Assembly: GCA_030949985.1 (NCBI GenBank)
Contig: JAUZRX010000015.1
Span: 124,001 to 188,000, forward strand
DNA from: Acidobacteriota bacterium
Lineage (GTDB): Bacteria; Acidobacteriota; Polarisedimenticolia; J045
Direction of reading: 5' to 3'
DNA length: 64,000 nt
Part shown: positions 9,025 to 23,352 of the stretch, one piece after another
Layout of the letters: each line of letters begins with the position of its first letter
Numbering within the stretch: position 1 is the first letter of the stretch
Position numbers and translations under genes: made by a program
The notes under the pieces: model-generated
Told to the model about the DNA's origin: nothing
Database searches by the model: none
The model's input: only the letters and a program-made list of their open reading frames with translations

Positions 9025-9651
9025 TCAGCCGTCACCCCCCGCCGGGGCGCCGAGTGTGGGCAGGGGGGCCCCGGCTCGGCGCAGCAGGCGTCGCACCACC
9101 TCCAGGGGCAGGCCGATGACATTGCTCGCCGAGCCTTCCAGGCGTTCGACGAACCACGCTCCGGCGCCTTGCAGCGCGTAGGCGCCGGCCTTGTCCAGGG
9201 GTTCGCGGCTCGCGGCGTAGCGCCGGATCTCCCGGGGATCGAGCCGGGCGAAGCGGACCCGCGTGGTGGAGGCCTCCTCGAGCACCTCGCCCTCGGGCCG
9301 AACGAGGGCGACTCCCGTGCAGACCTGGTGCCACCTGGCGGAGAGGCGGGTCAGCATGGCCTCGGCCGCCGCCGCATCGCGGGGTTTGCCCAGCGCGTCT
9401 TCACCTGCGAAGACGAGGGTATCGGCCCCCAGGACCAGGCAGTGGGGGCGCTGGCCGTGGGCCACGATGGCCTTGCGGCGTGCGAGCCGGAGGACGTTTT
9501 CCGCTGGGGGCAGGGAGGGGTCGGGGGTTTCGTCCACATCCACGGGCAGGACCTCGAAATCCAGGCCGACGGAGGCGAGCAGCTCCCTGCGGCGTGGGGA
9601 GGCGGAAGCCAGGACGATCTTCGGTGGGACCGGCGAAGTCATGGGGGGCAT
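9025..9651 (-). CDS. maf: Maf family nucleoside triphosphate pyrophosphatase
   Basis: The 208-residue protein starts with VLASASPRRRELLASVG, the Maf signature, and contains ADTLVFAGEDALGKP and YALQGAGAWFVERLEGSASNVIGLPL, all typical of this housecleaning family. Maf proteins hydrolyse non-canonical or modified nucleotides such as dTTP/UTP analogues or m7GTP. The Maf versus YceF/YhdE subtype cannot be settled here. I placed the start at the ATG at 9651, which has GGAGATA just before it; a second ATG lies three codons in, and an in-frame ATG further upstream would give 15 more residues. The gene is divergent from the cytochrome gene with only about 14 bases between starts. Confidence 0.93.
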   Translation of the reverse strand: MPPMTSPVPPKIVLASASPRRRELLASVGLDFEVLPVDVDETPDPSLPPAENVLRLARRKAIVAHGQRPHCLVLGADTLVFAGEDALGKPRDAAAAEAMLTRLSARWHQVCTGVALVRPEGEVLEEASTTRVRFARLDPREIRRYAASREPLDKAGAYALQGAGAWFVERLEGSASNVIGLPLEVVRRLLRRAGAPLPTLGAPAGGDG

Positions 9652-9665
9652 TATCTCCGACTTCG

Positions 9666-11141
9666 ATGACCGTGAGTGCTTTTTTGCGGCAGCCACGGCC
9701 GGGGCTTATCCTCGACACGTTCCGGGTGCCCCCCGGACCGAGGTCCGCCTTGCTGCAGAGTTCTTCGGAGTGTCCGCCCATCGCCCGGCCGCCGAAGGGT
9801 GGCGGTGGTGGCCTGCGGCTCCTGGGCGGCATGGTGCTGTTGCTGTTGCTGGCGGCGGGTGCGGCGCCGGCAGTCGCCGCGGAACGGGAACCCGATCTCG
9901 TGATCTTCTTCAGCGGCGGGACCGAGGGGTACATCGATCAGTGTGGCTGCTCGCGCTTCCCCATGGGGGGCCTGGGTCGACGGGGCGGCTATATCCGGAG
10001 TGTTCGACGTCGTTGGCCCGGTGCCGCGGCTGTCCTGCTCGACGGTGGGAACTTCTTCGACCAGCCGGGCCTGATCGGCGATGTGAAGACCCGGGGCCTG
10101 GTGCGCGGCATGAACTACCTCGGTTACCGGTTGGCGGCGGTGGGGGAGAGAGACCTGGTGGGGGGCTTCGAGCACTTCCAGGAGACTACGGGAGACGCCC
10201 GATTCCCGATCATCTGCGCCAACCTGGTGCGGGAAGATACCCGGATCCCGCTCCTCCCTCCTGCCACGCTGGTCGTGGCGGGAGAGCTGAAAATCGGCGT
10301 GGTCGGCCTGATGCGCCACAACCCGGCGCTGAGGCTGGATCTGGCGGGGGGAGGGCACGCGATCACCGTTCCGGCGCTGCCGGCCCTCGAAAATGCCCTG
10401 ATGGCCCTGCGGGACCAGAGCGACCTGATCGTCCTGCTGGCCACCATGCCCCTCGAGGACGTCCGGCTGCTGGTGCGTCGGGTGAGCGAGGTCGAGTTGG
10501 TGCTGGGGGCTTTCGGCTCCCGGGCCACGTCCCGGGCCGTTATCGAAGGTCGGGCGCGGATTCTCTACGTGGGAGACCAGGGGAAGAACCTGGGGCAGGT
10601 GAATGTCTACCGGGGATCCTCCGGGTCGCTCTCGCTCGAGCCGCGCCTGGTCCAGATCAACGAGAAAATCCCTCCAGACCCGCACCTCGAGCAGCTGGTC
10701 GTGGAGGTTCTCGCCGACGCTCAGGACGCCGAGCGGGCGACGCTCACAGCGATGGATCCCAGCGGTGAGGGGGGCACCGGAGCCTATCTCGGGGCCGGCG
10801 CTTGCGCCGCCTGCCACAGCGCCATCGTCGAGGACTGGTCGTCTTCGGCTCATGCCCTGGCCCTCGAAAGCCTCAAGCGGGAGCCGAACGGGATGCGTCC
10901 GGCCTGCATCGCCTGCCACGTCACCGGTTACGGCCAGGTCGGGGGCTGGGTCGACCAGCGCACCACGCCCCATCTGGCGGGAGTCGGGTGTGAGGCCTGC
11001 CACGGTCCGGGGGCCAGCCATGTGGCCCACCCCAAGCGGCCCTACGGTCGGATTTCCCTGCCGACCTGTACCAGTTGCCACACCGTCGAACTGGACCCGG
11101 ATTTCAACTACTACGGCGACCTTCCCCTCGTCTCTCATTGA
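9666..11141 (+). CDS. exported phosphoesterase-like / tetraheme cytochrome c fusion
   Basis: The first half resembles the UshA/5'-nucleotidase-like family that carries a CGC motif (VIFFSGGTEGYIDQCGCSRF, MGGLGRRGGYIRS and VLLDGGNFFD). The last 140 residues contain four CXXCH heme sites (CAACH, CIACH, CEACH and CTSCH) as in cytochrome c-554-like proteins. A hydrophobic stretch (GMVLLLLLAAGAAPAVAA) is the likely signal peptide, placing the protein in the periplasm. The true start is uncertain. The ATG at 9666 leaves a long N-terminal tail, and an in-frame TTG near 9751 or the ATG at 9831 is closer to the signal peptide. The electron-transfer role is inferred from the hemes; the substrate is unknown. 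Confidence 0.8.
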   Translation: MTVSAFLRQPRPGLILDTFRVPPGPRSALLQSSSECPPIARPPKGGGGGLRLLGGMVLLLLLAAGAAPAVAAEREPDLVIFFSGGTEGYIDQCGCSRFPMGGLGRRGGYIRSVRRRWPGAAAVLLDGGNFFDQPGLIGDVKTRGLVRGMNYLGYRLAAVGERDLVGGFEHFQETTGDARFPIICANLVREDTRIPLLPPATLVVAGELKIGVVGLMRHNPALRLDLAGGGHAITVPALPALENALMALRDQSDLIVLLATMPLEDVRLLVRRVSEVELVLGAFGSRATSRAVIEGRARILYVGDQGKNLGQVNVYRGSSGSLSLEPRLVQINEKIPPDPHLEQLVVEVLADAQDAERATLTAMDPSGEGGTGAYLGAGACAACHSAIVEDWSSSAHALALESLKREPNGMRPACIACHVTGYGQVGGWVDQRTTPHLAGVGCEACHGPGASHVAHPKRPYGRISLPTCTSCHTVELDPDFNYYGDLPLVSH

Positions 11142-11190: not shown

Positions 11191-11231
11191 GGAAAAAGAA
11201 CTGGCCCGCCGGGGGGAGCCGACGGGCCAGC
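11191..11231 (-). terminator. intrinsic terminator for the sigma region 4 gene
   Basis: A 12-bp stem with one mismatch joins 11202-11213 to 11220-11231 around a short loop. On the minus strand it is followed by TTCTTTTT, read from 11201 down to 11194. It is correctly placed and oriented to end the transcript of the minus-strand gene whose stop is at 11315. Confidence 0.65.
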
Positions 11232-11314: not shown

Positions 11315-11674
11315 TCAGGTCAGAGAGAAGTTCAACTGCTGGCGCAAGGAGCCCAATCGCTCGCGCAGCTTCAACTTGGCTTCCTTTTCGAGTTGCCGCA
11401 CACGTTCGCGGGACAGACCGAGGATCTTGCCGATTTCCTCGAGGGTCATTTCGTCGTTGCCCATCACACCGAAGCGCTTGAGGAGGATCAGCCGCTCCCT
11501 TTCGGGAAGCTCCTCGAGAGCCTGGCGCGTGAGCTGGACCAGCTCTTTCTTGTAGACGTTGTCTTCAGGACGAGCCGTCCCGGGATCTTCCATGAGCTGG
11601 GAGAGCCGGGTTTCCCCGTCGTGGTCGACGAAGTCGTCAAGAGACTTTTCTTTCAGGAGCCATGGAATCCACAT
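11315..11674 (-). CDS. stand-alone sigma-70 region 3.2/4 protein
   Basis: The 119-residue protein begins where region 3.2 of a housekeeping-type sigma factor would begin (SLDDFVDHDGE and LSQLMEDPG). It then has a full region 4: LPERERLILLKRFGV, followed by the helix-turn-helix MTLEEIGKILGLSRERVRQLE, which contacts -35 elements. Regions 1.2 and 2, which bind core polymerase and melt the -10, are missing. The in-frame sequence upstream of the ATG meets a TAG after 14 codons, and only 336 bases separate it from divergent mutL, so region 2 cannot be encoded there. GAGGTAAAGCTG ahead of the ATG is a good ribosome binding site. It may be a two-part sigma subunit, a regulator or a decoy; function unknown. 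Confidence 0.82.
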   Translation of the reverse strand: MWIPWLLKEKSLDDFVDHDGETRLSQLMEDPGTARPEDNVYKKELVQLTRQALEELPERERLILLKRFGVMGNDEMTLEEIGKILGLSRERVRQLEKEAKLKLRERLGSLRQQLNFSLT

Positions 11675-12010
11675 CAGCTTTACCTCGGCGGGTTTCTCGT
11701 CCCGCCCATGCTACTGCAACCTGTATGCCATCTTTGAGGGGTCAAAAACGGCCTTTTTCGCCTCCCGAGTGCGCCACTTTGGCGCGGAGTGCCTGGTTGG
11801 CATGCGATGAAGGCCCTGTTGCCTGGTAAGGCAGGCCCGCGGGGCCGGGTCGAAAGCGGGACACCGATCCGGGGGCCGGCGGAATCTAGCACAATCTTGC
11901 TGCAGACAAAAGACCTTTCTCGCCAAAGGCGTCCCTGCCCGGCGCGGGCATCACCGCGGGACAGGCGGGATAATGTGGTGGGGGCGGGCGACCCGGCCCG
12001 GGAGGAAGCG
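11675..12010. other. divergent intergenic region between the sigma-like gene and mutL
   Basis: I see no convincing gene in these 336 bases. The minus strand has an extended -10-like TGCTAGATT reading from about 11892 to 11884, which could start the sigma-like transcript. The plus strand has GATAAT at 11969-11974 ahead of mutL without a clear -35. A small hairpin (TGCCT and AGGCA) lies near 11820-11833. Confidence 0.35.
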
Positions 12011-13777
12011 GTGGGAAGAATCAAGGTGCTCGAGCAGGCGATCGCCGATCGGATCGCCGCGGGTGAGGTGGTCGAAAGGCCGGCCTCCGTGCTTCGCGAA
12101 CTGCTCGACAACGCCCTGGACGCGGGGGCGGGCAAGATCGAGATCGTTCTGGCCGCGGGCGGGCGGGAGCTGATACAGGCCAGCGACGACGGCTGCGGCA
12201 TGGGACGGGACGACGCCCTGCTGGCTTTCGAGCGGCACGCCACGAGCAAGATCCGCTCCGGCGAGGACCTGGAGCGGATCGCCACCCTGGGTTTCCGGGG
12301 CGAGGCCCTGGCGGCGACGGCGGCGGTGGCCCGGGTCGAGCTCCTGACGGCGGACGACGACTCGGGACAGGCCACCCGGGTTGTCATCGAGCAGGGGAGG
12401 TTGTCACGGGTCGACCCGGCTTCCCGGGCCCGGGGTACCACCATTCGCGTGATGGACCTGTTTGCCGGGATTCCCGCCCGGAGGAAATTTCTCAAGACTC
12501 CCGCCACGGAACTCGACCATTGCCTGAAAGTCGCGCGCCGCGCCGCGATGGCCCGGCCGGAGGTGGGTTTTCGCCTGCGGCAGGCCCAGCGGACGCTGAT
12601 GGCTCTGCCCCCCGGCCAGCCGGTCGGCGAGCGGATTGCCGGCATCGTCGGCGCCGCGGTGGCTCGCCGGCTGGTGGAAATCCAGCGCCAGGCGGGAGAT
12701 CTGGCCATCGAGGCCTGGGCGGGGCCCGTCGATCTGGCTCGCAGCAGCCGGGACGGGATTCACCTGTTTCTCAACCGGCGGCCGGTGCGGGATCCGTTCC
12801 TGGTGCGGGCGGTGCTCGATGTCTACCGCCCGCTGCTGCCCTCCGGCAGGTTTCCGGTAGTGGTGGTCTGGCTCGAGGTGCCGCCCGGAGAGGTGGACGT
12901 CAACGTTCATCCGGCCAAGAGCGAGGTGCGCTTCCATCAGCCCCGGCAGGTCCGGGCCCTGGTGGTCGGAGCGCTCCAGCAGGCCCTGGCCAGCCGTGCC
13001 GCGATTCCCCACTTTGGTCGCGAGCGGCTCGACGACGGGGCGGCTGCCGGGGGGGGAGGGGTCGCGTTCGGTGGGGAGCGCTCCGCACCGGAAAGGCCCC
13101 CCTTTCTCCCGGTGGAGGGTGGGGAGGTCGGAGCGTCGCCGCCGCCGTCGCCGCGGGCGCCGGCGTCATCCCCCGGCGCCGAGGCGCAGGGGGCGCTGGT
13201 GCACGATGGGCCCAGGGTCCTCGCCCAGTACCGCAACACCTTCATCGTCGCGGAGGATGCGCGGGGGCTGTTGATCGTCGATCAGCACGTGGCCCACGAA
13301 CGTCTGCTCTACGAGCAGCTCTGCCGGCAGGCGGTAGAAGGCCCCCTTCCTCGCCAGGGGCTGATGTTCCCTCGGCCCCTCGAAGTGGGGCCGCGGGAGC
13401 TGGAGGTGGCCACCGGGCAGCACGATGCCCTCGCACGGCTCGGCTTCCGTTTCGAGAGTTTTGGCGAGTCGTCGCTCATCGTCCGGGAAGTGCCGGCCGT
13501 GTTCGGTAACGAGGCCCGGCCCGAGGCGCTGGTCGAAGTGCTGGCCCGTTTCGAACGAGGCGACCGGGCGGGGGCGGAGGATTTCTTCGATCATCTGCTG
13601 GCCACGGTGGCCTGCCAGGCCGCGGTCAAGAAGGGCTATCCCCTCGGTCCGGAGAAAATGGCCTACCTGTTGGGAGGGCTCGAGGCCTGCGAATGTCCGA
13701 GCCACTGCCCGCACGGGCGCGTGATCTCCCTGCGGATCGACCTTTCCTCCCTCAATTCCCGCTTCGAGCGCAGCTGA
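12011..13777 (+). CDS. mutL: DNA mismatch repair protein MutL, endonuclease type
   Basis: The 588-residue protein starts at GTG with GGGAGGAAGCG upstream, giving the standard N-terminus MGRIKVLEQAIADRIAAG. The GHKL ATPase motifs are clear (ELLDNALDAGA, DDGCGMGRDD and TLGFRGEAL). After a Pro/Ala-rich linker the C-terminal domain holds DQHVAHERLLYE, matching the metal-binding motif DQHA(X)2E(X)4E except Val for Ala. It also has VACQAAVKKG and HCPHGRV, which are conserved in nicking MutL proteins. It should therefore act as the strand-nicking endonuclease in methyl-independent mismatch repair. No mutS is in the window. Confidence 0.95.
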   Translation: MGRIKVLEQAIADRIAAGEVVERPASVLRELLDNALDAGAGKIEIVLAAGGRELIQASDDGCGMGRDDALLAFERHATSKIRSGEDLERIATLGFRGEALAATAAVARVELLTADDDSGQATRVVIEQGRLSRVDPASRARGTTIRVMDLFAGIPARRKFLKTPATELDHCLKVARRAAMARPEVGFRLRQAQRTLMALPPGQPVGERIAGIVGAAVARRLVEIQRQAGDLAIEAWAGPVDLARSSRDGIHLFLNRRPVRDPFLVRAVLDVYRPLLPSGRFPVVVVWLEVPPGEVDVNVHPAKSEVRFHQPRQVRALVVGALQQALASRAAIPHFGRERLDDGAAAGGGGVAFGGERSAPERPPFLPVEGGEVGASPPPSPRAPASSPGAEAQGALVHDGPRVLAQYRNTFIVAEDARGLLIVDQHVAHERLLYEQLCRQAVEGPLPRQGLMFPRPLEVGPRELEVATGQHDALARLGFRFESFGESSLIVREVPAVFGNEARPEALVEVLARFERGDRAGAEDFFDHLLATVACQAAVKKGYPLGPEKMAYLLGGLEACECPSHCPHGRVISLRIDLSSLNSRFERS

Positions 13778-22942: not shown

Positions 22943-23352
22943 TCGGTTTGTTGATCGCGACCCATGGTCGCCTGGCATTCGAGTTGCTCGATGCCGCCGA
23001 ACACATCGTTCGCAAGCCGGGGGTGATGAAGGCACTGGTATTGGACTGGGACCAGGACTCCGCGACCTGCCTCGAGGAGATGCGCGAGGCGGTCGCCGAG
23101 GTGGACCAGGGCGATGGAGTGATCATCGCGACGGACATGCTGGGTGGGACGCCATCCAACGTGGCGATGACTCTGCTCGAACCCGGTCGTGTCGAGGTGG
23201 TCACCGGCGTCAACCTGCCGATGGTGGTCAAGTTCAGCAATCTGCGGGAAGAGCAGACGGTCGAGCAGGCAGCCCAGGTGCTGGCTGTCAAGGGGCGCTG
23301 GCACATCACCGTGGCGGGAGAGGTGCTTGCCGGGCGAGAGGGCCAGCCATGA
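22939..23352 (+). CDS. PTS EIIA component, mannose family
   Basis: The 137-residue EIIA domain stands alone. The phosphorylated histidine is His9 in GLLIATHGRLAFEL, and DMLGGTPSNVAM is the conserved second block. It accepts phosphate from HPr. There is no EIIB or EIIC sugar transporter gene in this operon, so the protein more likely has a regulatory role than one in sugar uptake. It overlaps both neighbours by four bases (ATGA), meaning strict co-expression with rapZ and ptsH. Confidence 0.93.
   Translation: MIGLLIATHGRLAFELLDAAEHIVRKPGVMKALVLDWDQDSATCLEEMREAVAEVDQGDGVIIATDMLGGTPSNVAMTLLEPGRVEVVTGVNLPMVVKFSNLREEQTVEQAAQVLAVKGRWHITVAGEVLAGREGQP

Follow-up and report, generated by a model that had tools for sequence, protein, structure and literature searches.

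A conserved stand-alone sigma-70 region 3.2 and region 4 protein behind a sigma-54 type promoter in one class of Acidobacteriota

The gene at 11315-11674 on the reverse strand of the window, which is the whole 64,000-nucleotide stretch of Acidobacteriota DNA analysed here, encodes a 119-aa protein that consists of two parts of a sigma-70 factor, the finger (region 3.2) and region 4, and the comparisons with relatives support the conclusion that it is a complete, conserved region-4-only gene and not a local truncation. It has a single origin, it keeps the residues that read the -35 element, and it is preceded by a sigma-54 site and by a dyad that is shared with one other sigma-54 locus of the genome. 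Sigma factors are normally thought to require region 2, and what such a protein would do without one is weighed below. In the open-access literature searched, no stand-alone region 4 protein was found described from Acidobacteriota.

The gene and its product

The gene and the features that immediately flank it are as follows.

11315-11674, reverse strand: stand-alone sigma-70 region 3.2 plus region 4 gene, 119 aa, ATG start (Pfam, phmmer and orthologues)
11683-11687, reverse strand: likely ribosome-binding site GAGG, about 8 bases 5' of the ATG (from the sequence)
11200-11231, reverse strand: terminator-like hairpin of 13 pairs with a T-run, 3' of the gene
12014-13777, forward strand: mutL, the divergent neighbour (start inferred from homology; TIGR00585, 506 bits)

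When the 119-aa protein was searched against Pfam, Sigma70_r4 was matched at residues 52-105 (E=1.1e-18), region 2 was not found and the overlap with region 3 was a sub-threshold HTH only. In phmmer, residues 11-108 aligned with the finger and region 4 of RpoS, SigA and RpoD chains. The protein thus has the region 4 with a -35-reading helix that marks the sigma-70 family, and region 2 is absent from the same polypeptide, which is what an initial sequence-only reading had proposed. That reading had also seen no room for a region 2 beside the gene, and the genome-wide Sigma70_r2 search agrees, as it gave no match nearby; its claim that the gene is complete, with its own start and terminator, is borne out by the ATG, the GAGG, the hairpin at 11231-11200 on the reverse strand and a start that is shared in 30 of 30 orthologous loci. 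Other orthologues have purine-rich stretches 5' of the start. The 25 NCBIfam models listed are all of full-length or general sigma families, none being dedicated to the stand-alone protein, and the one cut-off passed was that of the general superfamily model TIGR02937. The AlphaFold model of the protein alone has a mean pLDDT of 67, with the region 4 helices fairly confident and the first third disordered (pLDDT below 50 over residues 1-33), and sigma chains were the top Foldseek matches of this model. Rfam gave no match, and a simple scan found no sigma-70 promoter. The convergent neighbour at 9480-11141 on the forward strand carries a Cytochrome_C554 domain near its C-terminus.

Conservation, distribution and origin

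When 60 related genomes were searched, the top alignments started at the first residues of the query, and an orthologue was present in 33 of the 41 genomes of the host class within Acidobacteriota, counting matches at E <1e-34; the remaining listed matches were frames of about 300 aa or more. In all 30 orthologous loci read, the start position was the same and the product was 117-119 aa long (one was cut by a contig end), the start codon being ATG in 29 and GTG in one, and by eye the in-frame sequence 5' of the start varied between genera. The short form is therefore conserved in relatives, and no orthologue that was read was fused to region 2, so that what would have spoken for a truncation here, relatives with the gene inside a full-length sigma factor, was looked for with a negative result. 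When the window was compared with seven genomes of its own family, dN was 0.038-0.083 and dS 0.79-1.21, which gave a dN/dS of 0.044-0.070 in 7/7 comparisons; together with the shared start and length this led us to reject a truncation or a frameshift.

Protein identity between genomes of the window's family was 89-96%, and that of the adjacent MutL was 54-57%. In two genomes of the family the corresponding domain of the nearest full-length paralogue was 75% and 72% identical, as against 94% and 88% for the stand-alone protein. Across the class, taking genome G000 against G020, identity was 58% for the stand-alone protein, 57% for the paralogue domain and 77% for RpoD, and thus, on identity, the edge in conservation over the paralogue domain vanishes at greater distance. 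The region 4 positions are given in E. coli sigma-70 numbering. The equivalents of E585, R588 and Q589 were invariant in 33/33 stand-alone sequences, that of R584 was R in 24 and K in 9, and the recognition helix RERVRQ was nearly invariant. The position of K593 was E or D in 32 of the 33, for which reason the DNA contacts may differ from those of sigma-70. In the finger, S11, D13 and D30 were identical in all 33 and R23 was kept in 32. Since the finger is conserved and yet unfolded in the model of the protein alone, this suggests that it would fold on a partner.

Among 297 sampled Acidobacteriota genomes the gene was found in 27, all of them in the host class (34 class members sampled); in the 263 genomes of other classes there was none at a cut-off of 1e-29, which strongly diverged copies would escape. 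A wider contig search returned generic sigma factors and no stand-alone orthologue among 80 loci, and the four rows with fewer than 120 aa before the match were region 2/3 remains or cuts at contig edges. When a tree was built from 59 region 3.2-4 sequences, all 33 of the stand-alone kind fell into one clade (92/95, a rough bootstrap that is not settled). G003 and G011 have a second, more diverged copy, and in G007 only the diverged kind was seen. Four genomes (G017, G018, G019 and G022) have a mutL match and lack the gene, so that some lineages do without it, while G006, G008 and G029 have neither the gene nor a mutL match and the locus may therefore be missing from these assemblies. G039, which is 75% complete, has mutL and no gene; it belongs to f6, a family in which the gene and mutL are not neighbours. 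The divergent mutL adjoins the gene in 19 of the 35 loci laid out and was the neighbour in families f1, f2, f4, f11 and f12, whereas in f6 and f10 the neighbours were nth/dapF and TonB/ExbB/ExbD-like genes (names by eye). No pathway common to the neighbours was seen across families.

The sigma-54 type promoter and the dyad upstream

The sequence-only reading made no mention of a sigma-54 promoter or of the dyad of family f1, and the upstream region contains the following.

11715-11730, reverse strand: sigma-54 type -24/-12 promoter TGGCAT-N5-TTGCA, its core kept 5' of 32/32 primary orthologues
11771-11785, no strand assigned: dyad GCGCCA-AAG-TGGCGC, a candidate enhancer-binding-protein site, in 9/9 f1 primary loci
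11790-11802, no strand assigned: second, weaker dyad TGCC-N5-GGCA beside the first (from the sequence)

When nine f1 upstream regions were aligned they had in common TGGCA[TC]-N5-TTGC[AT], which we take to be the -24/-12 element of sigma-54 promoters. The core GG.A-N6-TTGC lay at most 130 bases from the start in all 32 primary orthologues, which come from nine families, and was met in 39 of 9361 background stretches (0.4%); this count leaves out the diverged copies L067, L089 and L090, which have no good site. L078, a diverged primary copy, keeps the sigma-54 site. Perfect sigma-54 sites numbered 17 in the genome compared to 2 for the reversed control pattern, and rpoN was present in 56 of 60 relatives, G000 included. 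Sigma-54 dependence was judged by the -24/-12 element and by rpoN and an enhancer-binding protein gene in the genome, all of which were found, and the gene is apparently switched on by the sigma-54 system. A second perfect sigma-54 pattern in the window, at 22973-22988 on the forward strand, falls, by eye, within the beginning of a PTS EIIA-like frame and is probably a chance match for that reason.

In f1, 55-58 bp separate the start of the dyad from the -24 element downstream. Its pattern [CT]CA-N3-TG[AG]CGC was present in all nine f1 primary loci and in 0/23 primary loci of other families, so that the activator may differ in those families. Matches to the fuller pattern GCGYCA-N3-TGRCGC number four in the 3.71 Mb genome (control 0), of which two are inside coding sequences, one is at the stand-alone gene and one is at G000:C10:105406. 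This last, the only other intergenic one, is 116 bp before a perfect sigma-54 site (C10:105522) ahead of a sigma-54 activator gene, G000:C10:105756-111008, which encodes a 1750-aa protein with Ser/Thr kinase, AAA, TPR, GAF, Sigma54_activat and Fis-type HTH domains. The dyad there is preceded by GCC-N5-GGC, which resembles the weaker TGCC-N5-GGCA at the stand-alone gene. With 3 dyads left to consider, 17 sites and a reach of 150 bp in 3.71 Mb, such a pairing of dyad and site would arise by chance with a probability of about 0.002. The simplest reading, drawn from one genome, is that the kinase-activator protein would bind its own promoter region as well as that of the stand-alone gene.

The order at the activator locus (L333 7407-13009, which is G000:C10:105406-111008) is dyad, sigma-54 site, hairpin with T-run, kinase/activator gene. 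The stretch that can form the hairpin (z -2.6, 96 nt) lies between the C10:105522 site and the kinase gene and has a run of eight T, because of which transcription from this sigma-54 site may yield a short RNA, or else a leader subject to attenuation.

What the protein may do

A tentative explanation, and the one that we favour, is that the protein is a sigma-54-induced stand-alone sigma domain which would act in trans as a modulator of sigma-70 holoenzymes. We infer polymerase binding, DNA binding, the identity of the activator and the direction of the effect in the scheme that follows. An enhancer-binding protein would bind the dyads and drive transcription from the -24/-12 promoter, and in f1 it is probably the Ser/Thr kinase-TPR-GAF-AAA-Fis protein at G000:C10:105756-111008. 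The 119-aa product, which retains the -35-reading helix, would then dock on core RNA polymerase in the manner of sigma region 4, on the beta-flap, and its region 3.2 finger would reach into the RNA exit channel. Promoter melting would be impossible for it alone as it has no region 2 of its own, which makes action in trans most likely, and at selected promoters it would compete with, or take the place of, the region 4 that belongs to sigma-70-type holoenzymes. That all of this forms one class-wide circuit, in which a sigma-54 activator (kinase-linked in f1) induces a free region 3.2-4 subunit that has no region 2 partner and that swaps onto the flap and re-targets or silences -35-dependent promoters, is a possibility that we regard as doubtful.

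The modulator is favoured over its two main rivals because the flap and -35 surfaces are kept and because no region 2 partner was found in three genomes. The first of these rivals, which we consider unlikely, is that the protein is half of a split sigma factor of the SigO-RsoA kind, its other half being either a separate region 2 protein that has diverged or region 2 from a full-length sigma factor that has had its own region 4 pushed aside. An initiating sigma half would need the finger and the -35-reading residues, both of which are kept, and there is a precedent in B. subtilis, where, according to the excerpted text of PMC8103513, SigO works with RsoA, which supplies region 2, both genes being in one operon; the excerpt of PMC10141391 gives 22.5 and 9.0 kDa for the pair. 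SigO, as that first excerpt describes it, resembles the protein studied here in that its region 4 sits on a polypeptide of its own that carries no region 2 (PMC8103513). Here, in contrast, the gene for the 119-aa protein stands alone behind a sigma-54 type promoter, and a search of three genomes turned up no region-2-only gene. Sigma70_r2 was matched 20 times in G000, always with a region-4-like segment after it (by eye), and 18 of these matches have PF04545 beside them in Pfam; in G015 (99% complete) 15/15 matches were paired with region 4, and in G027 (100% complete) 21 of 23 had a PF04545 partner, C60:29634 and C101:23048 being without a PF04545 match. Among PF04542 matches, then, there was no region-2-only partner in G000 and G015, and G027 leaves two candidates, in a search by Pfam profile that a highly diverged region 2 would escape. 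The sequence-only reading had offered a SigO-RsoA type of split as one possibility, and it finds no support in these genomes; its other suggestion, a regulator that would bind -35 sites or core polymerase, agrees better with the findings. Neither was a region 2 gene seen beside orthologues in the layouts, where only some of the neighbours were identified. In each of G000, G015 and G027 no strong region 4 match other than the stand-alone gene lacks region 2, and weak ones that lack it lie at G000:C23:280409, G015:C1:39237 and G027:C47:14822. One candidate for a region-2-only partner, G000:C21:185569, was rejected since it reads as region 2 and region 4 across an in-frame TAG. The match there (G000:C21:185569-185757, L057) belongs to an ECF-type sigma gene in which both regions are read through that single TAG.

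Slightly less probable again is a repressor or activator that binds -35 boxes and has lost its contact with RNA polymerase. Such a function would suit a small HTH protein that has a promoter and a terminator to itself, and it would fit the near invariance of RERVRQ, but the finger would be useless to a pure DNA binder and yet keeps S11, D13 and D30 invariant. A decaying truncated duplicate of a full-length sigma factor is hardly credible. It would account for the alignment beginning at the end of region 3.1 of the ~300-aa paralogue of the class, but not for the low dN/dS, the same start in 30/30 loci and the promoter core in 32/32. This paralogue (G000:C51, L049), which was the best full-length match in most class genomes examined, has the same order of finger and region 4 and differs in having full regions 2-4 and Q instead of R at the R554 equivalent (15/15), and in falling in a separate clade.

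The proposed modulator is also close in plan to T4 gp33, which the excerpted text of PMC7408454 describes as a sigma-4-like protein that sits on the beta-flap without region 2 and acts with gp55 at late promoters that have no -35 element; the likeness lies in a sigma-4-like architecture without region 2, seen here in sequence. Unlike gp33, the stand-alone protein falls among cellular sigma factors in the tree, had no match in the phage collection and keeps the -35-reading residues, which points away from a role independent of -35 recognition. For the partners of SigO and of gp33 no counterpart was found here.

A conserved region-4-only protein under sigma-54 control and with no visible partner would be to cells what gp33 is to the phage, and it would mean that region 4 of a sigma factor can serve in trans as a regulator. 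Being small and open to experiment, it would also be a handy means of studying the contest for the beta-flap and for -35 contacts. If the modulator reading is true, sigma-54 signalling would be wired directly to sigma-70 transcription, two unrelated sigma families being coupled by one protein.

A phage origin of the gene was considered and rejected, as there was no match in the phage collection and viral region 4 ORFs have other N-termini. In 12 of the 80 viral-contig loci the match was preceded by fewer than 90 aa, and some of these 12 were truncated at a contig end. L300, L312 and L322 are like the stand-alone protein in being short (98-117 aa) and made of region 4 alone, and differ in their N-termini, the match beginning at query residue 28 or later. 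With L323, L325 and L326 they make up a set of region-4-only viral-contig ORFs of 98-117 aa whose N-termini are unlike those of the stand-alone family.
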